DNA from: Branchiostoma lanceolatum
Lineage: Eukaryota; Chordata; Leptocardii; Amphioxiformes; Branchiostomatidae
Length of the DNA: 64,000 nucleotides
Assembly (NCBI RefSeq): GCF_035083965.1
Contig: NC_089722.1
Coordinates: forward strand, 29,100,642-29,164,641
Reading direction: 5' to 3'
Under the pieces are notes generated by a model, which was not told where the DNA came from, did no database searches, and was given only the letters and a program-made list of their open reading frames with translations. Below are positions 3,438 through 44,385 of the stretch, one piece after another. A program made the position numbers and the translations under genes. Every line of letters begins with the position of its first letter. Within the stretch, counting starts at the first letter, position 1.

Positions 3438-6400
3438 TCACTTGGCCAGGTCGTTCATCTCTCTGGTCAGCACCTGTGTGATGTGAACGGCTTGGTTCGC
3501 CTCGTCTCCACCAATCACACGCAGGGCTGCCTGCGCCGCCTCACGAACATGGGAGATGGGGTCATTTCTCCTACAGGGGAGAAAGGTCAAGGTCAGCTAA
3601 ACTACAGTCAAACTTGTAGAAGTAACCACCTCTACATAAGGACCACCTGGACAATGTAACCACTCTTTGGCAGTCCCTCAAAGATAATTTTTCCCATTAA
3701 CACAAGAATCCTAGTGACCACCTGTCCACATAGACAAGACTTTATCATTCCCCTAAGGGGTCTTCTCGGGCAGGTTTGACTGTATCAAAGCGCAGTCGTC
3801 TAGCAAAACTGGCTGTAAACTGGAACCCAGCTTGGAAGAAGAAAAGAGGCGACCAATCAATAACCTGGAGGACAGCAGAGTGAGACCTTGTAGAGATGGG
3901 TTACAGATGGGATAAGGCAAAATGACTAGCATCTGAGTCATTTGAGACCCTCCCCTGTGCCTGATATTAAGTGACCATCGTGATGATGATAAGAAATCCT
4001 GCTAGGTTAATCAACAAGGCCAGGCGTTCAGATCCTAACTGAGCTGTCAGATCTTACTGTATTCAGTTGAGATCTTAACGATGTTAACTCACCATGCGTT
4101 AATGATGTGAGGTACAGCTGCCTGGGCCTGTAGGTAACCCAGTGACACACATGTACTCTCACGCACCAGTCTGTCTTCATCCTTCAGTAGGTTCACCAGT
4201 GCTTGGACTATGTCTGGTGTACATGCACCTACGGAGGGACGTATGTCATTCAGTAGTCATCAAACTTAAACCTTAGAGCCAATGTCTGTAAGGATCAAAC
4301 AATAGTGCTCACGGTAAAAAATCGATTTTGCTCATATTTTGCACAGAGATACAAGTAGTACTTGGCCCACAACCCCTGAAAATAGCTTTCTTTCCACTCA
4401 ACACCCATCATTGCCATGGCAACAGCCCAGTCAAGTTTTGGGGCCATTTTGGTAGATTTTTGTATGGCCAGAACATGGAAATTGGCAAAGTTTAGAGCAC
4501 GCTCATTGCCAAATGCTTTAACGTAGCTCAAAACTCAAAATGCTCTTTTTAGACCAATGCCTAAACTTTTAGAAAAATGGAGTGAAGTCGATGTACAGAT
4601 AGATTTAAGTACTTGGGCATCCTCAAAACAATATGATGTTTTAAGGCTACAAAAAAACTATACTTTTTGCCTAACTTTGAGATGCTAAGGTAGCTATTTG
4701 ATACCAAATTTGAATTGGGTTTTGGGGTTAGACAGCAGGGAGAAGGTTAAAGCACAGTGCAAGACACAGTTTTTAAATTCTTGCCTCTCCATTATATTAG
4801 CACAAAACTCTATAGAAAGGCCACAAGATTTTCAGTTCTTTGCGTGCTACTTATCTATTGCTATGCTATTCCTCAGCATTGCAGTGCCACCTAGCAAGCT
4901 GCTGTAGAATGACAGTCTAGCATTGCTACATCGCCCATGCCATAGGGAGGCTGTTACCTGTCTTGCCCAGTGCGATGGCTGCCACAGCCCGGATGTTGGG
5001 ATCTTCATCTACCAGGAGCTTCTTAAGAGAAGATACCACTCCTGGTGTCTTGAATTTTCCTGTGAGTTTAAGCAGTAAAACTTTAAAATATTACACAGCA
5101 TCAAACAAGTTTTTGACTACTTACGGACAATTAGGGAAAAGGTGAGGAACATAGCAAATTCATGAAAGTATATCAGTTGTGCTACAAATAATTTGCATGG
5201 CATGTAACATCAATGTTTTATTTGAGAAGATGTTGAACATAAAGCTACACAGCAACATGAAAATCAATGGTATTATAATTGTCTGTTTATATATACAAAT
5301 TTGACATGAAATGCAAATAAAATATCATGATTATATACTGGCTGTGTGCAAATAACGTTGTTAACCAATAAGAAAAGAGTCTGACGTTACCCAGATTCTG
5401 TATTGCAGACAGGCGAACGGTGGAGTCCATACTGAAAACCTCCCTCATAGCATGCTTACTGGCACAATACTCCTTCAGCCTGCTGTAGAACCCGTGGGTT
5501 TTGCCGACCTCCGTCCCACAAAAGTTATCATACGCCTCCCGATGAAACCGCGGACTTCCCTCAAGGAGGTCCTTGTTGATGAGTCTCATCAAAAACTCTT
5601 GCTGCTTTCCTGGAAAATGTTTGTCCAGCTTCCGCTGGTACTCCTCCTGGAATGCCTTCTTGAATTCTACCCACGGAATGTTCGTCCTCACGTTTCCAAA
5701 CTTCCTCTCCCAGAATCCAGGCTTGGCCTCGTGTGAATCCCTGTTGTTTACGTACAACTGGCTGACCTCGTAGGTGGACGCAACTCCTTCTGTGTTTGAG
5801 AGTTTGTTGAGGGATGACCTGATGGTGGTAACGAGAGTTGGAAGGCTTTTCTGACACTCCTCATTATTGGTGAAAAACATCCAGTTCAGCTTGGCAAGCG
5901 TCAACTTCCTGTTGAATGAAAAGCAAAACTTTTCAGCTCACAGTTAACATTGGGGTTAGCATGCTCAAAGTAGGGATTTTTGCTTTACATGATATGTGAA
6001 GTTGTGGCAACTGGCTATATGCAAGTTGTTAGGGCTGAACCTAACAATGACAAATGTGTGACTGATTATGTAACTTTGATGAATTGACAATGATTTTATG
6101 GCTTACCTTGAATGATATGGTACGAAAACAAAAACCAATAAAATGAGTGTCTATTGGTGCCAATGTCATAAATTAATTGTTGTGCATGACCTTTAATTGT
6201 GTTATATAAATGAACTAATAATTCTATTATTCAACTGCATAAAAAGTACTGTAACAGTTGTTATTTCTTCGAAATGAATATTTCTACCCAGCCTGGAAAC
6301 TTTTAAAGTATCTGACAATGCAAGTGATCCCTAGATATAAGCCATACCCGTGAGGTACTGAGAAACTAATACAACATTGTCTATTTCAGGATGTCCCTGA

Positions 6401-9400
6401 CACAGTTTACCAACTGATGATGCTTCAAAAGTCACTGCTGTGTTGCTACAGGTACCTACATGCCAAAATCAAGATCCTTGTAGATCTTATCAAAGGACTC
6501 CTTGGCGACTGGGAAGATGGCCTTGTTGGAGATGTAGGCCAGCGACACCTCGTCAGTGCAGTGTTGAGACTGAACCGCATTGCTGCTCAACACTATGACG
6601 AAGGCCTGAAAAAAACATTGCAAAGAAATAATTATAGCAAAAAACTCTAGAAGGGGGACAAGATTTTCATTTCTTTGCTTGCTGCTTATCTATTTGTATT
6701 CTATTAGTTAGCATCGAACTGCATTGCTGCTCAACACTATGATGAAGGCCTAAAAAACATTGCAAAGGAACATTTATTTTCATTTATTAAAATTCATCAC
6801 ACATGTGGAAGGGACGGGAGAACAGGAGATAACACCTTTTCCAGCTCTCACCCCACAGAGATACATACAACATCAGATATAGTGAAAAATTTTAATTACA
6901 TGTATACAATTATAAAATAACATAATCAACTAGAGTTCCACGACCTCATATCTTCGCCAAATAATATGAATTGTACCGACAGATGCAAGTACCAAATTAC
7001 CGCCATTTACCAATATGACATTACATAGCCGTTTTTCTCAACAACCATTCAATTTAAGTCTTTATTTGCTTAAACAATATCTATCAATGTTCCCCTCTTT
7101 CTCAGTGGCTTGATATGCCACATGTCTTAAAGTCCTCTCATGGAATGTCAATAACAGTTAGACATCCAGGTAATAAGGATTTTTCTGATTTGTTTATTCG
7201 GCTGTAGATAAGTACAGCCAGGGCTACCCAAAGGCTAAGGCTATTACGGGTTAGCCCTACTAACTGAACAATATCCCCCTGATACAAGCTTTCACAAAGA
7301 CTGAAATACGACTTAAATGCATATGAACGCGCACAAACACAGAACTCGGCAGATTTTTAAAAAAATTCATTAATCATGCAAATTAGGTCCTGTTTGGCAT
7401 AATTATCATCTAACGTCAATCATCAGATTCATTTTAAAATCTAGCTATCTTCATACCAAACATAACAGATACATTTTAGTCCTTTCTTTTCAATCGCCCA
7501 GCTAGTAAGCTAGCTGTTGACCTAGATTCAGGATGCCAGCTGTTGACCTAGATTCTGGACGCCAGATGTGTACTATCACATGCCGCGTACTATGGTGCAG
7601 CAGTGCTATACATTTTCCTCAATGATTACGTAAAGTAGGTCATGATCTGCATAATGAGCATATCATTATGTTGATCATCACCTAAGGTACATATATACCA
7701 AATACAAGAATAATCCATCAATCACTGCTTGAGTTATCCTCCTCAAAAGTTACAAACAAATAGGCCCACTGCAGTTTACGGCAAGCCGCAAGGGGGCCCA
7801 AACTTACATCACTTACTCCCTGCCCCAAGATCTATCTACCACTTAAAAATCATAACCATAGCACCTGCAAAAAAATTGACCACAAACTTTGAGCGGATTA
7901 ATAAACTTTCCTTATTTATTATGCAAATTAGCTCCTGGTTTTCATAATATGTATTTGATTATGTAAAACATTACCTAAGCTATCTACATGCCAAAAATCA
8001 TGACGATCCGTCAACCCCTTCTTTAGTAATTCGCCTCCAAAGGTTTCAGCAAAAACGCCAACTGTAGGTCCAAACAATCCGCTAGGGGGCCCAAACTTGC
8101 ACAACTCATTCCCTGTTCAAGATTCAATGTATTACTGAAAAAACATGAGCCTGGCACCTCCAGAAAATTCGACCTCAAACTTTAAAACTCAGCTGCAGTA
8201 CCTTAAATATCCGCTAGGAGGCCCATTATCGAACTTGACCTTCCTACGAAAAATCATGAAGATCCATCAACGTTTCCGTCACTTTTTTTGCCTACATACA
8301 AACACAAAAACACGCAAAGTCCGCTGCAGTACTGATAGAATATGCCAGGTGAACGGTTTTCGAACTTGACCTTCCTTTGCACAAGCACTACACACCTATC
8401 AAAAATCATAAAGATTCATTGAAGCTTTCTTGAGTTATGCTCCTGACATACATACAGACCCACCCAACAGATTTTTCAACCGAAAACATAATCTTCCCCG
8501 AGTACAAGTACTCGGCGAAGATAATAACATAACAATAACTCTTAGAATAATTCCTAAAGCCTGTTTGGAAGACATGTCACATTTCACATCATTTGACTTG
8601 GTGGTAACAGTGTTACGCATTCTAGACGAGTGTTAGGTAGGCTGACCAAAATAACGTTGAAGGCCAAGATGAACAAGAAAAATACTCAAGCAAAAACAAT
8701 CCATAGAGAGGGAAGTATAACACCAACACCTAGTTCAGTACCAAGGCCAGGGTTCTTGAAAAGGATAGAGGTAGCCCTACTAATTGTCTATGTACAGCAA
8801 TAGAACTTTAAATCTCTTGAAGACCAGATTCCCTTCTGTATCCACTTCACCCTTGTGCTGCTGGGTCCATATGTACACGGGGTTGCACCTTGCAGTGCCT
8901 ACATGTATATGTACAAGTTGGGGGTATTTCTTAACTGAACGTGTCACACCACAGCACAATGCACTGAATGGGGAAGAAACTACATTTTTTGTACTAGTAT
9001 GCCACAGCAGTGCAGGAAAAGTAAAGGGCCAATGACCTGATTAAGGATTCAAATTAATGGAAAAAAATTGTGTAGGGAGTAAAGGAAAGGAAAACTGACT
9101 AGGACCAGCTGACTGGTTGAACCTAGAAGAGTCACACCTTTATGTTTACTTGTGTGTAATGTGTCAGTGTGGTTGGTCGGTTCATTTCATTCCTAGGGGA
9201 ACACTGGGCATCAAGTTATCTTTGCTGTTTCTGTTTGATTTTTGAGGAGTACAGGGAGTATCATGTGGTTTAAATGTTTTGATGATCCACTTAACTCTTT
9301 TCAAATTTGCTTTCTCTGTAGCACGCTTATGTAATAAATCCTGACTCATGTTACTTATTAGTTATCATCATGCTTCCTCCACCATATTCCCACTTTAAAG

Positions 9401-12400: not shown

Positions 12401-15400
12401 ATGTATTATATAAATGTGCAAAAATTAATGTTCTAAGATTGTTACAGCCTTCAATAGTTTGTTTCTGCTGGATGCAGCATCAGTCCATCATAGATGAATT
12501 CCCCTCAGATAGAACTGATTTTCTAACTGTCTTTCATGTTTGCACACAAAAGCAATGCATTTTTCAAAGGGAAGCCAAAATGAATCATTTGTGAGACCTA
12601 ATAGCATGCATTAATCACTTGGTAACAAATTGAATATCGAGGAAGCAAATCATGATTATCAGCTCAGCCTTAAGCCCCCCTCTCACTGGACCCGCGGCAC
12701 GCTGGCTGTGCCGCTGCCTCCTAAACTGGATTTGTGTTACCCTTGACTTCATAATGGGAACATCATTCAAAACATACAAGTATGACCAAAAAGACAACAA
12801 AACACACAAAGCTTAAAAAGATTCGTTTTTTGTCGATAAAATTCGTTCAGTGCTATGTCAATTCGATCGGCCGAAGCGACTCCGCCAAGCGTGCCGCGGG
12901 TCCAGTGAGAGGCAGGCTTTATCTCAACTCAATCTTACCAAAAGGGTTATTTCTAGCAGAGTGGGGTTCCCTTTGTGGATCAACAACTTACTATCTAGCT
13001 CAATAACTGAAGAAGCTATGGATAGATGTGAAGTCAAAAGTATACAAACCAAGTTGAGTTGAATAGTTAAATGGGAAAATGATTTCTGGCAAAGATATGA
13101 GGTCATGGAACTCTGATGTAGCTGGCTAACCCCATTAGAGAATGGCGTCACCGAAAACGTGTTTTTTTTTTCACTGTCATCACCTCAAATTTCATATAAG
13201 GCCTGTGACAGAAAGGTCTTCGAACTCTGGTCAGTTATACACACGAGCCTAGGATCTTTCAATACCTTATTTGGTAATCTGCACCTATAGTATGATATAA
13301 CGGTAGACATTGCATAACACACTTCATGATTGATAGCATGTTGAGATCCTTCCAAGTAATACCACAACTTGGGCAAAGCTGGATGTATCATTTTCAAAAT
13401 CAAAAAATCTTACGTAACACCATTTTGAGCTCTTGGTTGAAGACCTACTTCATTTTCATCCTGTGGAGACCCTGATAAATAAGGGAATTATGTTTTCTTG
13501 CTGTTACTGCCATGCAATATTTCCAGTATACTACATGTATATATTAACTACATCTTTTCAACATGAATTCAAATAACGTAAAGAATTTCATCACCTATTG
13601 TTTCTCATCATCTCTTTTACTCTTGCAGCAAATTTGAATCTTGAGAAAGACACTACAGGTATGAAAATGAGATGACAGAGCCTAGAGAAGAGTGAAACAA
13701 CATAAGCTAGTTGTCCTGCCTTTGCTTCTACTATGGCCTGTGCTCGCTGGGAGGGGTTGGACACAGTTGCGGGATCTTTTCTTTCCTCATTCCACACCTT
13801 CAGTCCTTCACTACTCAACTCCCCTATACACAGAACACACCAGTCAATACATGTACATGTACACACACACACAGACATATAACAGAGACATGTACAATGT
13901 TTACCTCAACACAACATCAATGTTTATGTCAGGAAAAAACCTTATTATGTACATGTAGTTACAATTACTGTAAATGCAGAAATTTCACTGTGGTTTTATG
14001 TTCGTGGTTTTTGCAGCGACGGTTTTACTGCGAACTTAAAATCCCAGCGAACATTTTTGTCCAATACTGTAGCAGTATGTGACTATAACACTGCCGCGAA
14101 ATTAAAACCACGTGAACACGCCATTTTTATCTTAGCGCGAAATAAAAACCACGCGAACTTAAATGCATTCACAGTATACTTATAAATCAGTTTATGTGCA
14201 AAATATTCTACGTTTGATGTTCCCCAATCCTAATGATATTCTCTTGTCACGGAACACAAAAAAGGAGGAATAAAATAAGGACTTACTGGATAAAAAATTA
14301 ATGAAGTCACGGTCGTTTCCGTCCCCACTTATCATGATGTCTGCTGCTTGTGATGACGCCATGTTTTCTTCCTGCTTGTTAGGTAAAAAAGATGTGGATG
14401 GGCCTGACTCTGTTACTCTTTCCTTAGAAGTTGCACTTGAAAACGATTGTCTCTGTTGACTGTACCCCACAGTTAAGGAAAGCTTCCTTTCAAACTTGGT
14501 GAGTTGAGTTTCACTTTGGGCTCCGGTATCCACAAATACACTGGTTGGCTCTATGACTGGAATGTCAGGAGAAAGAAATGTATGAAATATCCAAAAGACA
14601 TTTAAAGACCTTAAAAGCAATGCAAAGTTGTTAAGTGAAAGAAAACAGAAGTCCATACATATAGATGAATTAAAAAAATACTGTAACAGCAGGACCTAAC
14701 TATCATAGATATAGACCTTAGATCTGAAAATGGCCAAGATGATGTCTAAGTAGGGTGTCTAAATATCTACATGCAGGGAAATGGTTCGAGATTCCCTCAA
14801 CATTTTGTTTGATTTTTTTTAAAGCTTTGTTTATTGATAAGAAGCTCAAACCGGCCTGCAGGCCACTTTTCATTGAGGGCATGAGGGAAGAGATAAGGGT
14901 CCTGCAGATGAAATATAACAGACATACAAAGTACATCATTTAATGTTAAGTCCTAATAACTCTATGTTTGATAAGTAGTCTTCAAGTGTGGCCATTCCCT
15001 CCCTGAAAAAATTCTGCTGATCAGCCATCATTCATTGAAGGCACTTCACTTTGTGACGGCTGATTTGCAGATCACTTGTCAAATGGTGCATTCTACTTGT
15101 CTATAACGGAGAGGTGAGTAAAATAACTACGCTTTCAACAGGAGGACTGGGCAGCTGCCTGACATGTTCTGGTAATAATGTTCATTGAAAAGGAAAACCA
15201 GTTTGAAAGGAACTCAATAAAGTCTAACCATCCACGATGAGGTGGTTCAGCACCAAGGACAGTATCCACAATTTTCTGGATCGAAAATGACTTTTATTAT
15301 TTCGTGTTCTGCACCTATGGTAACTTTCAAGTTGTTTTCCTCGCATGTTTACATTTGTTCCTGTTTTGATGCTAAAGATACCACATTTTTGACACTAAGC

Positions 15401-16840
15401 ATGTCAATAGCCAAGTCAAAAACATTACTAGTATGTTATAGTACACATGTAACGTTACATCTATTGCATGTACATTACATACTACAACTGGAGCTTAATT
15501 GACTTTTTGTAACTCTTTGTATAAATCTATCTAGAAGAAAATCTGATGTTCAGTAAGACCTTTTTTTTTGCACATAGCATGTTCTTGTCAATAGCCCAGC
15601 AAACACATTATGTAGCAGTACACATGTGCATGTATTATACGTACATACATACTACACCTAGGGCTTAATTGGCTTTTTTCAACTCTTTGTAAAAATCTAT
15701 TTAAAGAAAATCTTGTGTTCATCGGCTTGCATATTTCAGAGGGAGTAATTAGAAATGGAATATTGCTGTACCCCTGGAGCACAATGAAGCTGTTGTAGTC
15801 ACAGCATGTTTCTGATTACAGAGGCACTTGCAAAGGGATTGAATGACACTTACAGTAATTGAGTTAATTCAAGATGTACATCACATCAGATAAGCTGCCT
15901 TGCCTGGTCTGGCAATAATATTTCTGCGTGTGAAAAAATTTAGCTTGAAAAAGTAAAGTTTTTTGAAATGTGTGTTTAATACAAAATTCTAGTAAATGTG
16001 AATTAAAAATGGAATATTGATGTACACTTGGTGTACAATGAAGTTGTTGTAGTCACAGCATGTTTCTGATCACAGAGGTACTCATGGAAGGATTGGATGG
16101 TGACAGTGGCAGTAATTGAATTATTTTAAGATGCATTTCACATCCTGCAAACAGTCACTGCGAAGCATATGTTAAAATAACTCAATTAAACAGTCTAAAC
16201 ATAAGTGTACTGCTTGGTTGCAAAGCATGCAGGTTCTGGTTGTTTATTCGTTAGTTATAGGAACTGCAGCTGATCATACACTTAAGGGTAGATCATTAAC
16301 CCTATGATTATAAAACAATCAAACACTGGCAATCCCATGTTTATGAATGTGGATAAAAATGCATTGACTTCAAGTCACCATGTTAAAAACAACAGCAACG
16401 CAACTTGTTGTCAGACTGGATGTGGACTAGGGTGTCTGCCTGTCTGGTTTTGAGTTTTCCAGAACTAAATTATCAACCCAAAAAATCCCATATAATTGTT
16501 CTGCCTGCAAGGCTTTCATGCTTTTCCTGTTTGGATGAAATCAATCTTACTTCATAATGGGTTCATTACCTGTCCTGTGCTCCCATAAAAATAAAAATCA
16601 TGTCATTGCTAAGTTAAACGTTAACATTCTTGAGTATTTTAAAAGGGACACTCACTCACTCTATGTATTGGAGTGATTCAACAGATAAGGACAACAGAAG
16701 CTACCATCTACAGAGATACACTGCTAAGACATATTACTCATCTATTAAAGGTAATCTAACAGGTGCTAACAGGTGGGTTACGTACCGTTAATCTGTACAG
16801 GCTTAGGCGGTGGCAGAGCGAAGGAGCTCCCGCAGCCCAT
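3438..16840 (-). CDS. TIR-HEAT repeat protein, minus-strand paralogue (8 coding exons, 487 aa)
   Basis: Coding exons in gene order are 16840-16786, 14556-14287, 13823-13720, 6605-6460, 5908-5391, 5059-4958, 4228-4093 and 3570-3438. They total 1464 nt, exactly 488 codons with the TGA stop. The start MGCGSS is a strong N-myristoylation motif with a palmitoylatable Cys3. Residues about 20-90 are Ser/Thr-rich linker. A TIR domain spans about 92-230. Box 1 is degraded (DIMISGDGND), but the segment SQHCTDEVSLAYISNK keeps the C-x-x-E candidate catalytic glutamate (E162). Residues about 230-360 form a helical region, followed by three HEAT repeats (for example LVDEDPNIRAVAAIALGKT and KDEDRLVREST). 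The protein is paralogous over its whole length to the plus-strand gene starting at 18304. TIR domains signal by self-association, and some cleave NAD+; HEAT repeats are protein-binding scaffolds. Location at membranes is inferred from the N terminus. Most splice sites are canonical; the donor after 13720 is GC. The intron 6606-13719 is 7.1 kb and full of repeats. Confidence 0.85.
6712..6771 (-). pseudogene. Duplicated start of the TIR exon with its splice acceptor
   Basis: Sequence matching the acceptor and first codons of exon 6605-6460 is repeated about 145 bp upstream in gene direction. Read on the minus strand, it has a T-rich tract ending in TAG, then codons for AFIIVLSSNAVR, after which similarity ends. 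It retains a plausible acceptor but no donor or remaining exon. It is a decoy acceptor or a duplication relic. Confidence 0.7.
6931..8526. mobile_element. Copy of a dispersed repeat ending in TTCGCCAA / CGGCGAAG
   Basis: The left end (TAGAGTTCCACGACCTCATA then TCTTCGCCAA) also starts the repeat at 48631 in HFM1. The right end, near 8510-8526, carries CTCGGCGAAGATAA, a rough inverted match to the left end. Inside, a module containing CCGCAAGGGGGCCCAAAC or CCGCTAGGGGGCCCAAAC recurs several times, with phrases such as AAAATCATGAAGATCCATCAA. There is no long ORF. It is a non-autonomous repeat of unknown class. The right boundary is approximate. Confidence 0.6.
9840..10160. repeat. Tandem repeat with a unit of about 77 bp
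   Basis: The phrase GCACTACCTGTGTACTTGAT starts at 10003 and again at 10080, and GATTCCCGAGAATCGTACA recurs between. More diverged units extend to the left, to about 9840, giving roughly four copies. It lies in the 7.1-kb intron of the minus-strand TIR-HEAT gene. Confidence 0.75.
10161..11147. other. Intron stretch with no recognised feature
   Basis: This part of the large TIR-HEAT intron is moderately GC-richer than its surroundings around 10500-11000. I see no convincing exon, RNA gene or repeat boundary in it. Short open frames here have no family signature. Confidence 0.4.
11148..12085. repeat. Nested inverted and direct repeat complex
   Basis: Bases 11148-11236 (containing CAGTTCACACATTTTCAAGA) return as reverse complement at about 11793-11880. 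A second module, starting near 11410 with CCCTTTGCATGATC and containing TTTACTTGAGAGACAC, is repeated directly at about 11945-12085. Part of it is inverted at about 11890-11940. A LINE coding fragment lies between the arms. The layout suggests successive insertions into the TIR-HEAT intron. Confidence 0.65.
11587..11712 (+). pseudogene. C-terminal fragment of a non-LTR retrotransposon ORF2
   Basis: The frame reads RGRGRPKKSWIECVKKDI, then a GLTNVDPLDRAAWRRCV segment and a TGA stop. The pattern GRPKKxW...D...GL...DR..WRR is typical of the extreme C terminus of LINE reverse-transcriptase polyproteins. No upstream RT domain remains, so this is a 5'-truncated or dead copy inside an intron. Confidence 0.75.
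12669..12918. mobile_element. Short inverted-repeat transposon (Harbinger-like MITE)
   Basis: The left terminus contains CTCTCACTGGACCCGCGGCA, and the right terminus is its reverse complement (GTGCCGCGGGTCCAGTGAGA). The repeats extend to about 35 bp with mismatches. The element is about 250 bp with no ORF. A possible TTA duplication flanks it, which would fit PIF/Harbinger elements. That class call is inference. Confidence 0.75.
13966..14176. mobile_element. MITE with TACTGTAAATGCA termini, copy 1
   Basis: It starts TACTGTAAATGCAGAAAT and ends AAATGCATTCACAGTA. The interior is rich in GTGGTTTTA and TAAAACCAC pairs, so it folds on itself. The same family recurs at 61174-61388, in related form at 61801 and 63347, and distantly at 24479. 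Confidence 0.8.
15754..16130. repeat. Two-copy tandem duplication with a spacing of about 254 bp
   Basis: AAATGGAATATTG..GTAC followed by TGTAGTCACAGCATGTTTCT occurs at about 15754-15870 and again at about 16008-16130. A related pair (AACTCTTTGTA.AAATCTAT) occurs at about 15510 and 15680. It lies in the first intron of the minus-strand TIR-HEAT gene. The rest of 14557-16785 shows no other feature. Confidence 0.6.
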
Positions 16841-17332
16841 GCCTGGCGCCTCCCCTGCAGGTTCGGTCACGACCAGCGCCCTGGGCAGCCCGCGGCACGA
16901 TTGAGAGCATATCTGGAGTGATCTACGTGATGCTGAGAACCCCAGGAATATGATGTTTTCAAGATTACTTATTCAAATATGCTCAGACCGCCTACTAACC
17001 TATCAACCTGGTGTGCTATTACAGGACCGCTGTGACAGGCAAACTAATTAGACTCTCCCACTAGCGCACTAGGGATAACACATGTATTTTTTCATACGAA
17101 ATGTAGACATAATGTACAGAATTATACAATTCAATCGCTAAATATACATCTAAAATCTTCTGACATTTTATCTTAAAACCGACTTATATGGTATTGGCAA
17201 CAGAATCGATGTTACAAATTACAAGAATAGTATATAATCCTGAGCACCCCTCTAAACGTTTGGTTGGGTCGAAATCGTCGCCATATTTAGAAAACGAAGT
17301 GTCTTCAGACCACTCCTTCGTTAGACAAAAGC

Positions 17333-17350
17333 ATGGTGGCAAAAACAACG
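17333..17350 (+). promoter_or_regulatory. Possible upstream ORF in the 5' leader of the plus-strand TIR-HEAT gene
   Basis: ATG at 17333 opens MVAKTT directly before a good donor (GTACGT, 17351). Joined to the acceptor at 18229, the frame continues DKVPWS and stops at a TAG before the main start codon. This would be a 12-codon uORF. The splice is predicted from the signals only. Confidence 0.3.
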
Positions 17351-17686
17351 GTACGTAATTCGTTCACGTCTTGTGTCTTGAGTTAGGAAGACTTGATCAA
17401 CCCTAGATTATTTTAGCTATTATTTTAAAGTTACTGTCTCTAGTAGTGGATCAGTTTGGGATTTTTAAAGTGTAAAAGCCTGTAGGGCGAAACCTGATCG
17501 TGCTGAAGGCCAAATATTAGTCTTTCGGTGTTTGTTTACCCCGTTGTTTAGATCGTAGTTAAGGGTGTTATTTTACACGATGTCACAGTGACAGTGCATT
17601 ATTATAATGCCCTGGACAATCAATACTTTTCTTCGCATTAAAGCTGTACTCGATAGCTATATTTCGATCAGAATCTATGAAGATCC

Positions 17687-17736
17687 TAATCTCCAAGCAG
17701 ATCTACGGTGAACCGTGTAGATCTGCTTGGAGATTA
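17687..17736. repeat. Perfect 20-bp hairpin
   Basis: TAATCTCCAAGCAGATCTAC is followed by a 10-nt loop and its exact reverse complement. It lies between the divergent TIR-HEAT genes. Confidence 0.9.
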
Positions 17737-17811
17737 AGAAATTGAGACATACAGACAAAAGGTCAAATGTAAGGTTACCCTGAACACCCACCTCAGAGCT
17801 GACTACGTTCT

Positions 17812-17931
17812 TCAGCTAATATTAGCTGAGGACCAGGGGTAAAACTAAAAGCATGCATAATCCTCCAGGATGACCATCATTTAAACTTTGTAATTTACAA
17901 TGTTTATATAAATTGGTCATCCTGGAGGATT
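17812..17931. repeat. Palindrome TCAGCTAATATTAGCTGA and an 18-bp inverted pair
   Basis: An 18-bp perfect palindrome sits at 17812-17829. AATCCTCCAGGATGACCA at 17859-17876 is repeated inverted at 17914-17931, around a 37-nt AT-rich loop. With the hairpin at 17687, three inverted repeats fall within 250 bp. Confidence 0.85.
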
Positions 17932-18303
17932 TTTAACACAATTCTCTTTACTTTTGTCATCTGTGTGATTGATAAGTACATTTAGGTCCTCTTGTTCTGA
18001 TATTTTGATTATAGTCTCTAGAACGTGAAAAGAAGGTGCCATGTTAATTAATCCGGCAGCCCTGTGTATGAGGGAACTTCAGTTCAGGCGTATGCCTCAA
18101 GCATCAAAACCTCTGCACGTTAAAAGAACCCAAGACTCAGTGTACATGGCTAAATATGCAAGTCGTGGAAAATTACACCATTGAAATAAACTGCCAGGAT
18201 GAATTCTAACTTTGTTTCATAATTTGCAGGATAAAGTGCCTTGGTCGTAGAGACGACTAGGGACATGTCAACCACTACAAAAAAGAAAAAGAAAAGTACA
18301 ATC

Positions 18304-21300
18304 ATGGGATCAGGGCCAAGCAGGAAGTCTTCCTCAGCACATCCACCTCGAGAGTTCCGTATGTCTCAGGCGGTGCAGAATAACGAGAATGAGAAGAGAA
18401 CTCAGAGTTTAACTGTGATGCCAATTCGGCCTCAGGCAGTACAGAACAACGAGAATGAGAGGCTAGTGGGTTTGGATCACCTTGTGATGCAACCTCAGGC
18501 AATACAGAACAATGAGAATGAGAAGCTGGAGGTAATACCAATTCAGGCGGTACAAAACAACCAGAACAAGAAGCGAGAGGATGACACCACAAAACAAGGT
18601 CAAACACCTTCATATGCATTTTCATACTCTTGTATTGAGAGTCGTTTGTTCGTTCCTTCGTGCGTTTGTTTGTTCGTTTAGACCCTTGTAGTGCCTAATG
18701 GCACATATATATACTAGTAAGACAGCAAGTCGAAGAAGATATGTATAACAGAAAAGAACATCCTCATTATATTTTTTGTTCTGCTCTAGATGTGGAGTAC
18801 ATTATAACGTTAATTGTTATATTTAAATCCAGGTGGCCAGACGGCCTTGCGTAGGCTGGACAGTTCCTCAGAGTTTGGGCAGGATGTGATGATCAGCTAC
18901 AGCCACCAGGACATGGACTTCATGAGGAAGATGAGAGGTGATGTCCTTAGTCTGTGTCTTCGGGTCAAATTCTTTTACTAGTTTTAGAATGTTTAGTTAA
19001 AGGTTTCCAAAGATATTTCTGAAGACATATGCAGATAAAGACACACAATATCACTTCGGGGAACTGATATCAACACATACTCTATGGCAAAACTGAGGTA
19101 TCAGCTTCTTTAAGATTGTGGAAGGGGGTAAGAATTATAGGGAAAGTGTCTTTGTTCGTTTTGCTCACAATCTTTTTGGCTTAGTTTTGTTGCATTTCCC
19201 TTTTCGCAGATTCGCAAAAAAAGGTAAAAAAATCCCTTAAGGCACTTATATGCCAATTGATGGTCTATGTTAGAAGGTGTTTTAATAAGTTATGAATGTA
19301 ATTGCAGGATCATGATCCACTGAACAAACAAGATGATCAATGATCAGATTTTGCTGCAAATTTAACACTTTTCCCACCTGTTATTCAAACTTAGGTTCAT
19401 TGGAGGCAGCTGGCATCAGTGTGTGGGTGGATGAACAGGGGCTGGGGGCAGGGGTGGACTTCCTCAACAAGATCGGCCATGCCATTGTTGAAGCAAAGGT
19501 GGGTACTGTTAAGCTAACATGGTGTTCATTGTGTGACAAAGGAACCATCGTTGCCTTTGCAAAATGAATTTACTTGACTTTGTGTACTTTGTACACAAGG
19601 GAACCATCGTTACCTTTGAAAGATGTCTTTATATAATTACTTTGTAGTTCAGGCTTTGAGAGCTGCCTGAGAACTTTTAAGCTAAATTGGTGTTGACTTT
19701 GGGATTGTTGACAGTAGTCAATGCCAATAGAATCTGGGTACATGTTGTTGAAAGTACCATTCCAAACTCCATTTCTATAAAATGATAGTAGCTTGATACA
19801 CTTGTTTTGCCCTCCCTTTTACATTGTGATAAACTCAAACAACAAGAAAATATTCCGCTCTCTTTTCAAAATGTCTCACAAAAGTTCTCACAAATAACCA
19901 ATGCTAAAGTATTTTCTGAAAGGTTGCAATTGATTGGAAGTTTAATGGCTTTTCTAGAAAAAAAAGGTTGAAAAATGATTTTGGAAAAAGTGTACAACAA
20001 ATTACATTATACATGGCAGGATAATGTCTATACTCAAAATTAAATGGTGTTTCCTGTTCACTGCTCTAACCACCCTCCTTTTGTTCCAGGTTTTCCTTTC
20101 CTTGCTCAGTCCAATCTCTGTCACCTCTAAATACTGTAAGGATGAGCTCGCCCTGGCATACATCTCCAACAAACCCATCTTTCCTGTTGCCATGGCAACA
20201 CGGGACAGCCTGCGCAAGGACATGGACTTTGGGATGTAAGTGCTGTTTATCTTATTATAATTAACTGTTTTGAAGTGTGTCTAATTTCTTGTTGGAAATT
20301 TCCTTCTAGAAGAACTGTATGTCCATTGATGTCCCAACATGTACAGTGTCATTCAATCATTCATTGGTGTGAAAAGAGAGGGTGTGCAAAAATATCATTG
20401 ATGAAATGAATGACTTGCAATATGTAAAAGATGTGCTACCTCCTGTCCATAGCTTCTAAAAGATTCAACCGCCATTTCAGCTGAGTCACACAGCGAAACA
20501 GTTTAGCTGGTTGCCTAGCAACACCAACTAATTACTAACAGATTAGCACCCCTCCAGGGTCATTACCAGGTAATTCTATCCAAACCATTTGTTAACATGC
20601 ACCCAGGGAGACGAAAATCGAATGGTACATGATGTCTTCAAGGCTTTATTAAATTTCCAGTCATAACTCAATTATGTCCATTGCCAGACATAATTCACTT
20701 GGCTTTGCAGCATGTTTTGAATGGGGTAAAGGAGAAAGGAGGTTTATTGTATGTTGTACAATGTCATGTGAAATGTGTTGTGTTTTACTGCAGAATTGTT
20801 TCAACCCCGAATGTAAAATGCAGTGAAAACATAATTTCTCATTCAGCCACAAAATTAAGTCCCTCCAAAAATAGATTAATTTACAGTACAAGTCTGACTC
20901 CTTTAGCTTTACAGGTTGTGATAGGGTAGCTTTCATGTATAAGTTTTCAAATTCATGCTTTGATGATTAGGAAATCATAATCCTCAGGTCTTTAATCATT
21001 TTGCATGTTTGATTTATTCTTCAGGCAGCTGACCCTAGCCCCTATGGAGTGGGTGGACTTCTCTGAAAGGGGCAGTTTTGACCTCAGTTTTACTGCCCTG
21101 ACACAGAAGATTAAGGCTGCAACCAAGCCTGAGAGTGAAGGTATGTTTAACTGTCTCTCTGCTGAAGTAGCCTTTCGGCACCAAATTTGTATTAGTTATG
21201 GGCTTAGGCAGTAGAAAGAAGGTTAACCTATAGCAGTATCCCTTTAGTTATTGATTTTTTTTATTGTTGTTATTGTCTGAATGGCATTGAACATGGCCAT

Positions 21301-24300
21301 GGCTCATTGCCTTTAACATTAAGTTATCTTGGATGGAGAACTAAATTCCATTTTGTGATGTTTAAAGTCCATATCTTTTTTACTCTTTTGTACAAATGTC
21401 AGTCTAGAGCAGATTGGAGAGATTGTAGCAAAAAATGACAATTCAATCATCGTCCTATATGTGGGTTTGGATATTGGATATAGCAATATAGGCCATATGC
21501 CCTGCATGTATCTATCCTATGGGGATACATACAGTATGGCATAGCCAATACGTACTACTGTCACAACAGAAGCTAGTTGTAGTCTTTAGAGAAGCACTAG
21601 AAGCACACACACCTTGACTCTACCTTACAAATGGCTGTCATCTAAAGTTGAATATAGTAGTCAGTCCCTTTAGTGAAGATATTTCTCATTCTAACAGTAG
21701 CAGAGGTCACAAGGCCAAACTTGGAACGGCCGCCCACCCGGCAAAACTTGAACAAGATGACCAGGCTGAATTCCAATCCACTGGATGATGAGTCAGACTT
21801 CTGGGAGAGAGCTTTTAAAAATGCAAAGGATGTCCCATGGTTGAAGTAAGCATTTCTCTTACATTTTCATTTCGTTTGTTCTTTATCTAACCAAGGGAAA
21901 CATGTCATCATCTTAGCGATTTTCAATGTGCCATGGAGTTACATGTACAAACAATTCAACCAGAAGGCAAAGTAAAATTAGACATTAATTGAACGCATGA
22001 ACAAAGTTACTGCAGGTAAATCTGACTTCTGTACATTGAGTATTGCACTTTTTGGAAAAGAACATGTTTTCAAATTGGAACATTTGTTTTATGATACAGT
22101 ACATATATTGGATATGTTGACCTGCAGATCTACGTCTGTCTCCTCAGTGTTTGAAAATGTTTCATGGAACTAGAAGTCGTGAGTTTGATTCCAACTTTGT
22201 CGCTCACCCAACATGCATGCTACTGGAAAGGGTCGCAGTCCTTATAAGTCCTTATAGGACGGAATGTTAAGCTGTGGTCCACTGTTCATTGTGCTAATGT
22301 CCAAAAGAGCAAGGGGAATTTGTAAATGCTTTAACGTTGGGTAACATAAATTCGTGGGGTACTTAAATTCGGGATTTTTCGAAAACGGGGTATTTAGGGA
22401 TATGTGCTAGATGCAACATCAGTAATACCACTAGAAATGCAAACTTGACAGGCTAACACATTCAGAACACTGCCTGAAAAGCTTCGATAACCATGCATTA
22501 GAAGTTGGCGACGTCAAAAACTCTCCGTCCCTTATTGACAGAGTCTGGGGGCTTCGTGGGAGACTCACACTGCACGGTTGTTCGCTGGTTTATAAGACAA
22601 ATGTCACATCTCCTGCCTGCTAAACACAATTATTTACAAGACAACTTATTACAATCTCTTTTGCTAACCTGCAACTGGATTCTAAGTGTGATCAATCATC
22701 AAAACTCCTCTTTGTTGCTACAACCTACGGCACGTGTATTTTCCCGCCGCCATATTGTTACCCAGAATCATGTCGTCAAGCAGACGACAAAAGGTTTGTG
22801 AGGAACACTTTTTTGTCTAAATGTTGCGTGTGATAGTGGACTGAAGACGATATTTTCCTCAAAGTTTGCTCCTAACACAACAAGGAACACATGGACATAG
22901 TAGTATAACCATTGGTACGGCATCCAGCTAACTTGACATGAATAATGTACACGTTGCCATGACGGTGGGGATCGACTTTGAGTGACGTTCAACCCACTCA
23001 ACAAACGGGATGTTAGCAAAGGCCTGATGTGTGCGGTGCGGCCGTTTTTTCGTGTATTTTTTTACTTGGACACGTCTATATCCATAGCACTCTCCTCAAG
23101 CCAAGGATGGAACGAATAGCTGCTGTATAAAATGTGATTAGCGGTAAGATATTCAAGACGAATCTTCTCTCCCGAATTAATGTGCCCCCCTGTCCGACAA
23201 CACTGTCATTGTGCGTGCGGCGGACGGTAGTTTCAAGTTGAAATATTATGGTGTCAGCACGACTAGAGACAAAATCTACCATATATATGATTAGTGCAAA
23301 GATAGTACATGATACTGACAGAATAATAGAAAAAAAGGATGGTTTATTGTTCTGCTAGATTGATTTCAGTCAACCATTATCGGAAAAATCCCGAATTTAT
23401 GTTACCCAACGTTACATAGTGTCTGTCTTCTTCTCTGTCACAAGTACTGTGGAAGAATAGCTCTTCAGTGAGAAAAACTGGATCGAGATCACTTTCTTTC
23501 TTCTTTGAACATTGTGTTGAACCTAAATGTTAAATCTATCTCCCCTTCAGGTTCACAGAGGCTTTTGACAAGACCTACAGCTCTCTGCTTGACGGTATGC
23601 TAATCAGCAGTGGTTCAGAACACAAGGACTGGCTCATGACGGTTCTGAAGAGAGAAATGACTGTAGAGAACAATGTCTTGACGAGGGAAAACTATGACGG
23701 TGAGATGTGATACGTTTGTTGTTTTATTGGGTTACAGATTGCCCTATTGTGGTTATTCGTTCTTGAAAATTCCTCTAAGAACAGAACTAAAGATGAAAAT
23801 GTCAGAATTGGTGGTAATTGTTGGTAGCTTTTAGCTATGGTCTGTGCCACCACTGTTTGCTTTGAATCTGCCAACAACTAATTGTTGAGAGAAGCTTGAA
23901 TCAGTGGACATTCAGATGCCCAATTTTGAAATGCAAGTAAGGATAACCTTTTTCTACGCATCCCAATATGGATGGAGGAAAGATTTGCGCAGTGTTCTCC
24001 TCTTGTATTACCACATATTCAGTTGTACTGTAGTAGTTTAGTAGTACAAAAATGTATTCCTAAAAAGATGTCAGATATTGTCGTGACATATGCCCTGAAC
24101 CAGACCTATGATCTTGCAGAGTTCTGACAAGGAGGAATGAAAAATATTGTTTTTTCACAGCTCTAGTTACGACATGTACTGTATCCCTTTTTGAACTTGA
24201 TATTGCCATGATATAACAACTTGGTATGGTTCCAGAGTTCCGTCATGTGGGAGGGGTGGAGCTTCCGTTCTGGCAGCGTGTCCATGAGCAGGCAGTGGAG

Positions 24301-26634
24301 TCCTACACCATGAGGGAGGTGTTCCAGATGGAATCTTCAGTCAGACTCTCAGCTATTGAAGATTTAGGTAAGATCTCTTCAGTCTGATATACTAGTATAT
24401 CACTGTAGTACTAGGTATTAACTTAAGGCTCTTTAATTTTTGTACACAACCAAAGCAATGTTTCTGCAGGCCCTCTGCTACTGTAAATTTATTTACTTTT
24501 GCAGTGGTTTTATTTTTCACAATATGATGGAAAAGGAGGTTTTTGCAGTGTTTGAAATTCGAGGTTGAAAGGATTCTGTAGCCATGCAAGCTTAAGGGAA
24601 ATATTTTAGCAGTGCCATCCATTCGTGTTGGAGAGATCACCACAAAAAATTAGAAAATAAAACTGCTGCGAAAGTTTCAGAATTACAGTTCCTTCCTCAG
24701 CACACTACTGTCTACTTCTACTTTCCATTGCTGTGTGTATGTATCTGATGCTTTTGTCATTTTGACAAACACAACATCATAACTTAATTATGCTGGCTTT
24801 AACACATCCATCTTTTCTTAAAACAAACCATCCAAGATCAATTCAAACTGGTTATTATATGTCACCACCCATTTCAGCTAAGTATCGCAGTAAAGCCGTT
24901 GTGGATGCGCTGTTGGACCTGCTGAATGACTCAGACCCTAATGTGAGAGCCGTGGCTGCCGTAACACTGGCCAAGTCAGGCAACGCTGAGGACCAGGAGG
25001 TCATCAACAGGTACGTTACTGTAAGGTAAATGTAGGTAAAGGTAAAGATAGTCCCATAGCCTTTTTGAAGCCATAGGGTCAGTGGGTTGTTATCCACTGT
25101 GTCTAGGAACACAGTATTCAAAGCCATAGCCCATCCCTCTCCTTCCACCGCCTTTTACCTCCCAAAGTCAGGTACCCATTTTTACACATGGGTGGAGTGA
25201 GGAAACGTCCCAAGGGCACTTGACAGGATTCGAACCCAGGACCATTGGGGTCTGGGCCAGACGCCCTGCCGTTACGTCAGACGACCCCATATTTCTGTAA
25301 GATTCAGAAATATAACATTTTCTTAGGAGATTGTATTCCTCTTACTTTGTATGTCATATATGGACCTTTTAAAGATCTTATACACTATATCCGTACACAA
25401 AGGAAAGCGCTTACCAACAGCTTTTTGATCAGTCCTCTTATCCCTCTGAAGTTGAAATGACCTGAACCCTATGTCACGTGACGTGAACAAAAGTTTAGGC
25501 AAGGACCGATATAGACTTGCTTATTTTGTCAAAAGTGCATTGGCATGTTATCTAATAATTACTTCCTACTTCATGATGTTGTAAGGTTGTGTGATTTATA
25601 CTGCCCATTCATCTTTCAGGTTACTGAAGACATTACAAGACAAGGACAGGCTTGTGAGAGAGAGTGGCTGCATTGCCCTGGGATACCTTAGAGCCAGCAA
25701 AGCTGTCCCACAGTTGGTGCACCTTTGGTGAGCTATTCGTTGAGAACTGGAATTATCTTCTATATAATTATATATTTTCCCTCCCTCTCCTGTTGTTTCT
25801 TCCTCTCTAGATTTAACTTTGTCTTTCCATCTCATGGTCTCTCCCTCTCCTTTCTATGAAGTGAAAGCAGATTGGAGATACTCAAAGCTAACAGTTATAG
25901 ATGTAGATACATGTACAAACAGGGCAATATATTAATGGTAACATGCCGCAATGGTCTCATACTTGGTTGACTGTAAGTCTAGCGCAGTCTAAAAACTCTC
26001 TTGGATGTCTATAGCTGCAGGGCACACACTGGGCATACAAAGGTAGCACTAGGGCCCGGTCTTCCTAGAATGGCATTGCAAACAGCATGAAACTTTATAT
26101 CTGTGTTGTTAGTTTAGACATAGTCAACATTTTGTGTTCAAATGAAGTTTTAGTTATGTACACATCGAAAACACCTTTGTGCAAACTCTTAGCTCCATCA
26201 TGTAACTGAAATCAACACAACTTTAAGTTACTGTCCAGTAACAATGTTGTCAATATTATGGAAGCCCATCTGCATTGGTAGTAATCATAATACAATGCTA
26301 AACATTCTTCCAACACTAAGGTATTCACAGATTGATCCTGAAGAGGGCGACAGTGGTCGTTAGAAATTTGATCTGTGAATAGCTAAGTGTTAGAAGCAAG
26401 TTTAGCATTGTGTAACGAGTTTGTACAATTGTATTATAATGTTGTCAGTAGATTGAGACAGTCCCATCTCTTGCCTACAGGAGGAACGACACCATCTCCA
26501 CAGTCCGTGAGGCCGCGTCAGTTTCCCTGGAGAAGATCGGAGGGGAGGAGGCGGAGAAGGCCATCCACATGACCAAGGTGCTGAGTGAAGAGATCAAGTT
26601 GCTCATGCAACAGAGCATGCAGAAACAGGCCTAG
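18304..26634 (+). CDS. TIR-HEAT repeat protein, plus-strand paralogue (11 coding exons, about 529 aa)
   Basis: Coding exons are 18304-18598, 18833-18937, 19395-19498, 20090-20235, 21025-21140, 21698-21845, 23551-23699, 24236-24367, 24878-25010, 25620-25727 and 26481-26634. They total 1590 nt and close in frame at TAG. I chose MGSGPS (18304) because it is an N-myristoylation motif. An in-frame ATG at 18265 would add 13 residues (MSTTTKKKKK...) and destroy it. An in-frame TAA lies just upstream in the same exon. The N-terminal 90 residues hold four copies of a QAVQNNENEK motif (about 22-31, 44-53, 65-74, 81-90). The TIR domain spans about 114-250: box 1 QDVMISYSHQD, then VWVDEQGLGAG, then SKYCKDELALAYISNK with candidate catalytic E187. 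A helical linker and C-terminal HEAT repeats follow (LLNDSDPNVRAVAAVTLAKS, QDKDRLVRESGCIALGYL). Its TIR boxes are better preserved than those of the minus-strand paralogue. NADase activity is inference. Exon 6 has a second possible acceptor 6 nt downstream. Confidence 0.88.
20510..20522. promoter_or_regulatory. Perfect RFX X-box (GTTGCCTAGCAAC) in a TIR-HEAT intron
   Basis: GTTGCC-T-AGCAAC matches the RFX-factor X-box consensus (GTNRCC, 1-3 nt, RGYAAC) on both half-sites. It lies in the intron after the exon carrying the candidate catalytic glutamate. In animals X-boxes mark cilium genes and MHC-type promoters. Function here is inference. Confidence 0.45.
22170..22331 (+). mobile_element. Degenerate SINE-like fragment
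   Basis: GTGAGTTTGATTCCAAC resembles a pol III B box, and the following GGAAAGGGTCGCAG...GGACGGAATGTTAAGC resembles tRNA-SINE bodies. It is diverged and directly precedes the element at 22332. Confidence 0.35.
22332..23414. mobile_element. 1.08-kb inverted-repeat transposon inside the plus-strand TIR-HEAT gene
   Basis: The termini are ACGTTGGGTAACATAAATTC and its reverse complement (GAATTTATGTTACCCAACGT), flanked by TA on both sides. A subterminal TTCGGGATTTTT is also mirrored. TA flanks suggest a Tc1/mariner-type insertion. No transposase is recognisable, so it is non-autonomous. It lies in the intron between exons 21845 and 23551. Confidence 0.8.
24479..24690. mobile_element. Diverged MITE related to the TACTGTAAAT family
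   Basis: It starts TACTGTAAATTTATTTAC and ends near GAATTACAGT, with GCAGTGGTTTTATTTTTCAC inside, as in the copies at 13966 and 61174. Confidence 0.5.
25030..25290 (-). mobile_element. tRNA-derived SINE (reverse orientation)
   Basis: On the minus strand a B box GGTTCGAATCC appears, followed by CCTTGGGACGTTTCCTCACT, GTAAAAATGGGTACCTG and GGGAGGTAAAAGGCGG. The same body follows the B box of the copy at 33521. It lies in the intron between the last two HEAT segments. Confidence 0.8.
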
Positions 26635-30772: not shown

Positions 30773-31886
30773 ATGGGCCACCAGACGACCACAAAGATCA
30801 GTCCGTATCTTGTATCCTACCTATTGACGACGTACGCTGTTTGGACAGTGGGACTTGGTCAAGCCGTACCTTCAGCTGAGGCTAATGTGGGACTGGACAG
30901 GGTACGGCGTGGTGTCATGTGCGTGACTGGATGTAGCTGTAACAGTGCTACAGCCACAGTCACCTGCATATGGCCATCTTTGGACGCTATATCCGGGTAA
31001 GTGTATTGAGAGAACACACATGTGAAGTGTGCATAATCTACGTACACTGCTTTTACAACTATAGAATATTTTCTGCATCATGTGTAATGCGTCTTTTTTA
31101 GATTTATCATCACATGGACACTTGATCTCCCCGTGTGTTTTCTAAGTTTTCTGATAGAAGTGCAGTAATAATCACTTCGATTCTGTCAGAAAACTTAGAA
31201 AACACTATTTTTCATGCAAAGCCTAAGGATGGTAGAAATGATTCAAAACGCTAGTGAAGCACTTTCTGGCAGCGACTTATCTTAAAGATTCATTTTCATA
31301 CCGGTTTTTACTAAAAGAAAATCGAACCATTAACGAAAATTATAGTTGGTTTCATACATTCTCTGCAGCATGCCCAAGTGACTGTGCAAAATTTTATTTT
31401 GGTTATCAAAGAAGCGTCAGATAATTTCAATTTTTCTTCACAACCTCAGCGTCCCCGTCGGCACCAGCGCTCTGAGTTTCCGTGGTGGGAAACTGACGAA
31501 GGTTCCCCGGGGGACGTTCGCCAACTTCGCGAGCCTGAAGACTCTTCATCTGGACCAGAACAACATCAAGACCCTCGCCGACGGATCGTTCACCGGGCTG
31601 TCCAACCTGAGGAGGCTCACACTGAGCAGGAACGCGCTCTGGGTGGTACGTAGGGTACTGGATTGTATGTATGGTATTCATTTTCTGGGTATGGAAGAAA
31701 GTAAAATATTGAAAGCCTTAAGCCTTAAGGCTGGACTTAATGTTTCAAAATGATGATACGTCTAGCTATAGGTTGATACTTTGGTTGGATTGTTTTCTTT
31801 GGAAGGAATGTATCGTTTGAAAAAGCCAAATATCATATGTTACTTTCGTTCAGTCATTTAGGATTATACGTTACGAATGGCTAATA

Positions 31887-31968
<82 letters not shown>

Positions 31969-37039: not shown

Positions 37040-37320
37040 AGTTGTCCAAAGTTGTCCGAAGTTGTCCGAAGTTATGACGTCATCCTAACTTTGGACAGTC
37101 AGCCGGGTGGTGTACGAAGTTGTCCGAAGTTGTCCGAAGTTATGACGTCACCCTAACCATGACGTCATCCTAACTTTGGACAGTCAGCCGGGTGGTGTAC
37201 GAAGTTGTCCGAAGTTGTTCGAAGTTATGACGTCACCCTAACCATGACGTCACCCTAACTTTGGACATTCAGCCGGGTGGTGTACGAAGTTGTCCGAAGT
37301 TGTCCGAAGTTTTGACGTTC
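37040..37320. repeat. Left subterminal array (unit about 85 bp, three copies)
   Basis: Units read CAGCCGGGTGGTGTAC, then repeated GAAGTTGTCC, then GTTATGACGTCA and CATGACGTCATCCTAACTTT. Each has one or two CRE-like TGACGTCA palindromes. Confidence 0.85.
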
Positions 37321-37451
37321 TTAGAGCGGTGTCGTTTTTCAGTCTATCAGTTTGAAACCGGGTTGCGCTGAAGTCGCCACGGCTAATTTTTAGTCCGTGT
37401 CTTTGACGAAATAGACTTTCTTTACGGGAGAATTACGGACAATATCATATC

Positions 37452-38263: not shown

Positions 38264-38744
38264 TCAATTTAAACAGTCTTTTTATGTAAAAGGGGTGTGA
38301 CCTTGCAGGCAGAAACTGCCATACTTCTGTACTAAATGGTGGAAGTACTTCAATTAATTGTTGAATTACAAGGATTAAAATAACAACTACTACTTCTTAT
38401 GATACAAAGTAGTGAAAGAAGACTGCAATACATGTAGTTTATAAATAGATATGGGAGATGTTTTCAGGTACTTGTATTTAGAAGTGACGTAAAAATGGAA
38501 ATATAATAGTAAGAGTGAACTTAAATTATTTTGTGTGCATTGTTTAAGCGAACTTTAGGAGTAGAAATAAAAGACTAAAAGACTTAAATAAAACTAACTA
38601 AACTAAAATAAATGAATTTTTTACAATGCATGAACATTGTTTTTGTGATGATTTATGTGCATCTATATTTCATTTGTTCATATGCGTGAGTGGTGTGTAT
38701 CATATTTACATATATATATAAGTTTTTACTATGTATTAAGTAAC

Positions 38745-40140: not shown

Positions 40141-40230
40141 TCCATCCACCAATCCATCCATTCATCCATCCATCCATCCATCCATCCATCCATCCATCCA
40201 TCCATCCATCCATCCATCCATCCATCCATT
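40141..40230. repeat. (ATCC)n repeat between copies A and B
   Basis: An imperfect CCATCCAT tract, the counterpart of those at 34360 and 44266. Confidence 0.9.
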
Positions 40231-44265: not shown

Positions 44266-44385
44266 CCATCCACCAATCCATCCATCCATCCATCCATCCA
44301 CCAATCCATCCATCCATCCATCCATCCATGCATCCATCCATCCATCCATCCATCCATCCATCCATCCATGCATCCATCCATCCAT
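44266..44385. repeat. (ATCC)n repeat between copies B and C
   Basis: CCATCCAT units, with occasional CCACCAAT and CCATGCAT interruptions. Confidence 0.9.

Follow-up and report, generated by a model that had tools for sequence, protein, structure and literature searches.

Divergent TIR-HEAT paralogues of amphioxus with an uneven pocket: a possible enzyme and its pocket-altered partner

Organisation of the gene pair

The window analysed here, a stretch of 64,000 nucleotides from Branchiostoma lanceolatum, contains two divergent, head-to-head paralogous genes (A and B), each encoding a TIR domain followed by HEAT repeats, as determined from splice models and sequence comparison. Coding stretches in the window are short and split by introns, and the gene models were rebuilt from the exons conserved between A and B together with splice sites. 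Gene A lies on the minus strand (16840-3438; 8 exons, 487 amino acids) and gene B on the plus strand (18304-26634; 11 exons, 529 amino acids). A preliminary description of this DNA had placed both genes, in this layout, within 3438..26634, and the splice models end at exactly 3438 and 26634. The features of the pair are as follows.

16786..16840, minus strand: A exon 1, MGCGSS start with Cys3, ending in phase 1 (donor score 8.5; upstream in-frame stop)
14287..14556, minus strand: A exon 2, linker and TIR beta-A (ADIMISGDGND) (splice model)
13720..13823, minus strand: A exon 3, spanning alpha-A to alpha-B, with a rewritten BB loop and a GC donor (position and phase match B exon 3)
6460..6605, minus strand: A exon 4, from beta-C to beta-D and carrying E162 and LAYISNK (splice model, alignment)
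5391..5908, minus strand: A exon 5, end of the TIR domain and middle domain, 518 bases (conserved with B, splice model)
4958..5059, minus strand: A exon 6, HEAT (splice model, Pfam)
4093..4228, minus strand: A exon 7, HEAT (splice model, Pfam)
3438..3570, minus strand: A exon 8, end of the HEAT region and stop codon (splice model, Pfam)
16841..18303, no strand: gap of 1.46 kb separating the MG start codons of A and B, with inverted repeats in it (start and repeat scans)
18265..18303, plus strand: B upstream in-frame ATG and 13 codons (MSTTTKKKKKSTI) before MGSGPS (open frame, start and splice scan)
18304..18598, plus strand: B exon 1, MGSGPSRK start and QNNENE-repeat linker (splice model)
18833..18937, plus strand: B exon 2, TIR beta-A (QDVMISYSHQD, with S120, Y121, S122 and H123) (splice model, alignment)
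19395..19498, plus strand: B exon 3, beta-B with D146, BB loop DEQGLGAG, alpha-B (splice model, alignment)
20090..20235, plus strand: B exon 4, from beta-C to beta-D and carrying S181, E187 and LAYISNK (splice model, alignment)
21025..21140, plus strand: B exon 5, end of the TIR domain (splice model)
21698..21845, plus strand: B exon 6, middle domain, FWERAF...VPWLKF, weak resemblance to Cbl_N2 (splice model, profiles)
23551..23699, plus strand: B exon 7, middle domain (splice model)
24236..24367, plus strand: B exon 8, middle domain, MREVFxMxSxVRLSAI common to A (splice model)
24878..25010, plus strand: B exon 9, HEAT (splice model, Pfam)
25620..25727, plus strand: B exon 10, HEAT (splice model, Pfam)
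26481..26634, plus strand: B exon 11, end of the HEAT region and stop codon (splice model, Pfam)

The anatomy of the gene pair is solid. There are no in-frame stops across the 487 codons of A or the 529 codons of B, exon phases are compatible, and 16 of the 17 introns are bounded by GT-AG (10/10 in B and 6/7 in A), the single exception being A intron 3, which has a GC donor (AAG/GCAGGA) where B has GT. One A exon of 518 bases holds the content of four B exons. Aligned identity between the two proteins is 52/118 in the TIR domain, 39/140 in the middle domain and 70/135 in the HEAT region. Third-position divergence exceeds second-position divergence in 4/4 regions (0.61 vs 0.34 in the TIR domain, 0.66 vs 0.22 in the HEAT region), a measure that is an average across the full history of the two lineages and so does not date the constraint on A. 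Searching the window with A and B as queries, at an E limit of 0.1, yielded no third copy.

Two observations concern the surrounding non-coding sequence. Unspliced past the GC donor of A exon 3, the frame continues on the minus strand (13594-13720) to a stop just beyond 13594. Between A and B, inverted repeats at 17668-17931 (39-nt arms that are 79% complementary and 18-nt arms that are 100% complementary) are possibly small mobile elements, and the gap that holds them (16841..18303) is a possible common promoter of the two genes.

Domain composition

The preliminary description had ordered both proteins as N terminus, TIR, HEAT, with the repeats after the TIR domain, unlike SARM1, and had called for an HMM search for the two families; Pfam positions bear this order out, with both families above cut-off in A and in B. 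TIR_2 is matched by residues 92-209 of A (E=2.1e-13, 51.3 bits) and 117-237 of B (E=1.1e-21, 78 bits; cut-off 28), and HEAT_2 by both A (7.4e-21, 74.7 bits) and B (2.3e-19, 69.9 bits; cut-off 27.7). As these scores lie above curated cut-offs in both proteins, the matches are far beyond chance. The other Pfam TIR family, PF01582, stayed under its own cut-off in both, and at E up to 1 Pfam showed no SAM family in A or B. The HEAT block is a short one of two to three units (HEAT PF02985 stretches number three in A and two in B), and Arm matches lie within the HEAT region. In the PADLOC models, at E up to 0.01, the matches were to TIR (SAVED-TIR, Argonaute TIR, ThsB) and HEAT models (6 families for A, 17 for B), and every NCBIfam match was far under cut-off; neither collection settles function.

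The TIR domain and the HEAT block are separated by a middle domain of ~130 residues, in which FWERxF...PWxxF and MREVFxMxSxVRLSAI are common to A and B. Its sole recurrent weak match is the EF-hand-like Cbl_N2 family, matched weakly by both members (best E 0.024; 15.2 bits for B against a cut-off of 22; phmmer 0.55 against Cbl in the PDB). In a two-member profile of the middle domain, bacterial foldase and PYD chains score slightly above Cbl. The resemblance to Cbl_N2, below cut-off and outranked by unrelated chains, is no more than a lead. The contiguous coding part of A exon 5 (5392-5907) gave a predicted fold with a mean pLDDT of 41.

N termini

The two starts, MGCGSS in A and MGSGPS in B, share the pattern M-G-x-G-x-S, in agreement with the published preference for N-myristoylation, G-x-x-x-S/T (PMC5492501). 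A exon 1 is joined to exon 2 by matching phase alone; of 14 candidate phase-1 first exons (minus strand, 14557-18300, donor score 6 or more), no other begins with MG, and just one other has a donor score of 8 or more. Its ATG is flanked by G at -3 and +4 and is the first in frame after the upstream stop. Gene B is less straightforward, in that an in-frame ATG with G at -3 stands at 18265, 39 bases 5' of the MGSGPS ATG. The top-scoring acceptor within 17300-18304 is at 18230 (score 6.25, within the range of 4.75-6.38 for the ten acceptors in the B model), so both B ATGs are probably on one exon and transcript. Initiation at 18265 would give MSTTTKKKKKSTIMGSGPS, in which Gly2 is absent. The second ATG, with A at -3 and G at +4, could possibly be reached by leaky scanning. 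That M-G-x-G-x-S is common to both first exons argues that this start is old, an argument from likeness with no formal chance estimate behind it.

The earlier proposal that both proteins begin with an acylatable Gly2 holds as far as the motifs go, and is partly undercut for B by the ATG at 18265, an alternative start of the kind that the proposal itself had named as damaging. N-myristoylation and membrane tethering are plausible for A; the upstream ATG weakens the case for lipidation of B, for which tethering is the less likely of the two.

The glutamate and the NAD pocket

By the splice models, the candidate catalytic glutamates of the preliminary description are E162 in A and E187 in B. The pocket was mapped by sequence alignment to Cat1, in place of a structural overlay on SARM1; E187 aligns with the catalytic E74 of Cat1, and E162 aligns with E187. 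Cat1, a TIR NADase of a type III CRISPR system, is the best solved-structure match of the B TIR domain (phmmer 4.8e-5). A profile built from A, B and four bacterial TIRs, which is tilted by its bacterial rows, matched best, among the best 60 of 65 matches, Cat1, the 7uxr TIR domain protein, AbTIR and TIR-APAZ chains, with a TLR chain and SARM1 ranking next, and also found TLRs and MyD88.

Position is thus upheld for the glutamate, but not its use as evidence of activity in both proteins. This residue is conserved in >70% of TIRs, a share that rises to >90% within the TLR1/2/6/10 subgroup, and according to the same survey has no necessary link to reported activity (PMC7075850). Dictyostelium TirB, TirC and TirD are reported all to carry it, with only TirC cleaving NAD (PMC13142454). 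Because the glutamate may be conserved without activity, the remaining pocket sites were compared.

In Cat1, the NAD site is described as S7, H8, N9, N10, D33, S68 and E74 of one protomer with K121 and Y122 of the next; alanine changes at six NAD-site residues were defective in vivo, and D33A abolished toxicity in vivo with the purified enzyme losing activity only partly (PMC12162218). Our mapping took in the seven one-protomer sites. At these sites B has S120, Y121, S122, H123, D146, S181 and E187, and A has S95, G96, D97, G98, E121, S156 and E162. Besides the glutamate, S120, D146 and S181 of B are identical to Cat1, and Tyr, Ser and His replace His, Asn and Asn. Strict identity is therefore 4/7 in B and 3/7 in A, and the contrast between them comes down to two sites plus the BB loop. 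Taking the five pocket sites (S, aromatic, D, S, E), B has 5/5 (S120, Y121, D146, S181, E187), and A retains S95, S156 and E162, with Gly at the aromatic site and Glu, a conservative change, at the D33 site. The BB loop of A is rewritten (KDPATVSN), and beyond the glutamate A retains only part of the Cat1 site expected of TIR NADases.

Comparison sequences came from searches for relatives. Two scans of genome contigs gave 61 and 61 pattern matches and one scan of viral contigs gave 40, none a confirmed relative, within a reach limited to near relatives. Matches were found in 131 plasmid records, all at <60% identity, and in one phage record; 4/131 of the plasmid records were compared (8 TIR domains of 4 proteins, picked by likeness to B and compared by sequence only). 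The Tyr at the H8 site is present in 8/8 of these bacterial TIRs and in B, and the Asp at the D33 site in 6/8 and in B; A has neither. The glutamate is retained in 8/8, including the 2 without the pocket Asp, and the N9 and N10 sites vary among the eight. A TLR15/TLR2 chain has the Tyr, His and Glu and lacks the pocket Asp. By Asp and BB loop, then, B groups with the prokaryotic chains shown (Cat1, AbTIR, 7uxr and 8j7s), and at the aromatic site A is unlike B, the 8 bacterial TIRs and the chains compared. In two of the bacterial records, L001 (190-2697) and L002 (1489-3264), there are triple tandem TIRs, the middle one without the pocket Asp and with the Glu retained.

Divergence between A and B is uneven along the TIR domain. 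Identity is 20/56 in the N-terminal half (beta-A, beta-B and BB loop) and 31/54 in the C-terminal half (beta-C, Glu and LAYISNK-IFPVA, to beta-D), so the serine, glutamate and LAYISNK motif that the preliminary description had read as common to both is well kept from beta-C to beta-D, and not in the N-terminal half. From this one-sided change we infer that A may have kept a TIR contact surface and that its substrate pocket was lost or altered. On these residues, B could tentatively be taken as a candidate NADase, and an enzymatic A is quite unlikely.

Relation to known systems

A TIR domain joined to an Armadillo-type fold is already known beyond SARM1, as is a myristoylated TIR protein, TRAM. 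TRAM (TICAM2) is not known to carry HEAT repeats. It resembles the proposed arrangement as a TIR protein placed at membranes through N-myristoylation (PMC5492501). In Aplysia, TIR and Armadillo-type folds occur together outside SARM1 in proteins (10 in the text and 11 in Table 5 of the source) described as of unknown function (PMC9334734), and ARM-TIR proteins are also listed for oyster (PMC4346834). Genes A and B are like these mollusc proteins as described (PMC9334734; PMC4346834), and by architecture only they fall in the invertebrate ARM-TIR class (TIR with an ARM-type fold, not SARM1). Amphioxus has been credited with 28 TIR combinations, 20 of them specific to it (PMC2575513), and group 18 of a TIR survey brings together TIRs from protozoa and metazoans that differ in architecture (PMC7075850). 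A phrase search for literature joining TIR with HEAT or ARM returned SARM1 only; as most subscription papers lay outside this search, absence is unproven.

SARM1 and TIR-1 are alike to A and B in combining a TIR domain, alpha-solenoid repeats and the catalytic Glu. SARM1 differs in its C-terminal TIR, which follows ARM and SAM, whereas the TIR of A and B precedes HEAT with no SAM found; given this domain order and lack of SAM, a SARM1 orthologue was rejected. In the BB loop B resembles the SARM1 group, with L-G-A-G at the place of its L-E-A-G (PMC7075850). Cat1, with which B shares the pocket S, D, S and E, is prokaryotic and has a CARF sensor rather than HEAT, with His, Asn and Asn in place of the Tyr, Ser and His of B. 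The Dictyostelium paralogues, all with the glutamate and one active, offer a precedent for an uneven set, but these TIRs have been linked to those of bacterial TIR-STING proteins (PMC13142454). The feature of interest in A and B is the uneven pocket of the pair.

Discussion

Here, we propose that A and B are divergent animal TIR-HEAT paralogues with split roles, B an enzyme and A its pocket-altered partner, a reading to which we give a probability of roughly 0.37. B would be an oligomerisation-dependent TIR protein, NAD-cleaving or NAD-signalling, whose HEAT and middle domains would scaffold the TIR domain or keep it inactive, and which may act in stress or immune signalling. A would be a pseudo-enzyme that still packs against TIR domains and either helps to assemble B or restrains it. 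N-myristoylation would hold one or both at membranes, A being the likelier. HEAT regulation and the A-B partnership are the conjectural parts of this scheme. The contrast between A and B is weakened by the D33A change in Cat1 being only partly damaging in vitro. The most specific form of the proposal, in which a membrane-tethered, HEAT-regulated animal TIR NADase distinct from SARM1 is controlled by A as a divergent pseudo-enzyme with the TIR contact face retained and the substrate pocket lost, we consider unlikely.

That both proteins are instead non-enzymatic TIR adaptors, making homotypic TIR contacts with HEAT as scaffold and a lipid for membrane placement, is almost as probable as our main reading. 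TRAM, a TIR adaptor, is dependent on N-myristoylation (PMC5492501), the glutamate does not predict activity (PMC7075850; PMC13142454), and the C-terminal TIR half of A is conserved despite the altered pocket. B fits this less well, with an intact BB loop, an NADase as its best solved match, and the Asp found in Cat1, AbTIR, 7uxr and 8j7s and absent from the TLR15/TLR2 chain. The opposite position, taken by the preliminary description, is that both are active membrane-tethered TIR NADases under HEAT regulation. The glutamate, the two pocket serines and MGxGxS are indeed present in both, and loss of the Asp alone harmed Cat1 only partly in vitro (PMC12162218), but the Gly at the aromatic site, the Glu at the Asp site and the rewritten BB loop of A, together with the upstream ATG of B, make it very improbable.

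It is also conceivable, if rather unlikely, that B is a working gene and A a decaying, functionless copy. The GC donor of A exon 3, in place of the GT of B, could mean decay, and the N-terminal TIR half of A has diverged. Against this, A runs for 487 codons without a stop or frameshift, its HEAT residues are identical to those of B at 70/135, and third-position divergence exceeds second-position divergence in all regions, though averaged over the history of both lineages.

In light of a 2020 survey, in which SARM1 alone among metazoan TIRs has known NADase activity (PMC7075850), and a 2026 preprint describing TIR clades that are widespread in eukaryotes and unstudied (PMC13142454), what might the pair contribute? 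With the pocket retained in B and altered in A, it provides a built-in comparison. If it is true that B cleaves NAD and A does not, the pair would represent a second kind of animal TIR enzyme with a possible regulator. It also illustrates why TIR enzymes should not be called on a conserved glutamate alone.

Other features of the window

Near the TIR-HEAT pair lies a plus-strand gene (31382-33490) with LRR and Ig domains (LRR_8 3.7e-31 and I-set 2.5e-12, 32060-33490) and, by eye, a hydrophobic stretch near its C terminus. Beyond it, 34706-47458 is a cluster of duplicated segments, mostly 86-97% identical. Minus-strand open frames at 35044-35889, 40794-41966 and 44954-45916 encode closely similar proteins sharing HPARRWVKRKLRGVARALSR, with no Pfam match. 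Helicase-like exons, which we take to resemble the meiotic helicase HFM1/Mer3, occupy 54463-58193, with a Helicase_C match just under cut-off (E 2.6e-4) in 57695-57970; the frames 57695-57970 and 57894-58193 contain one common peptide stretch.
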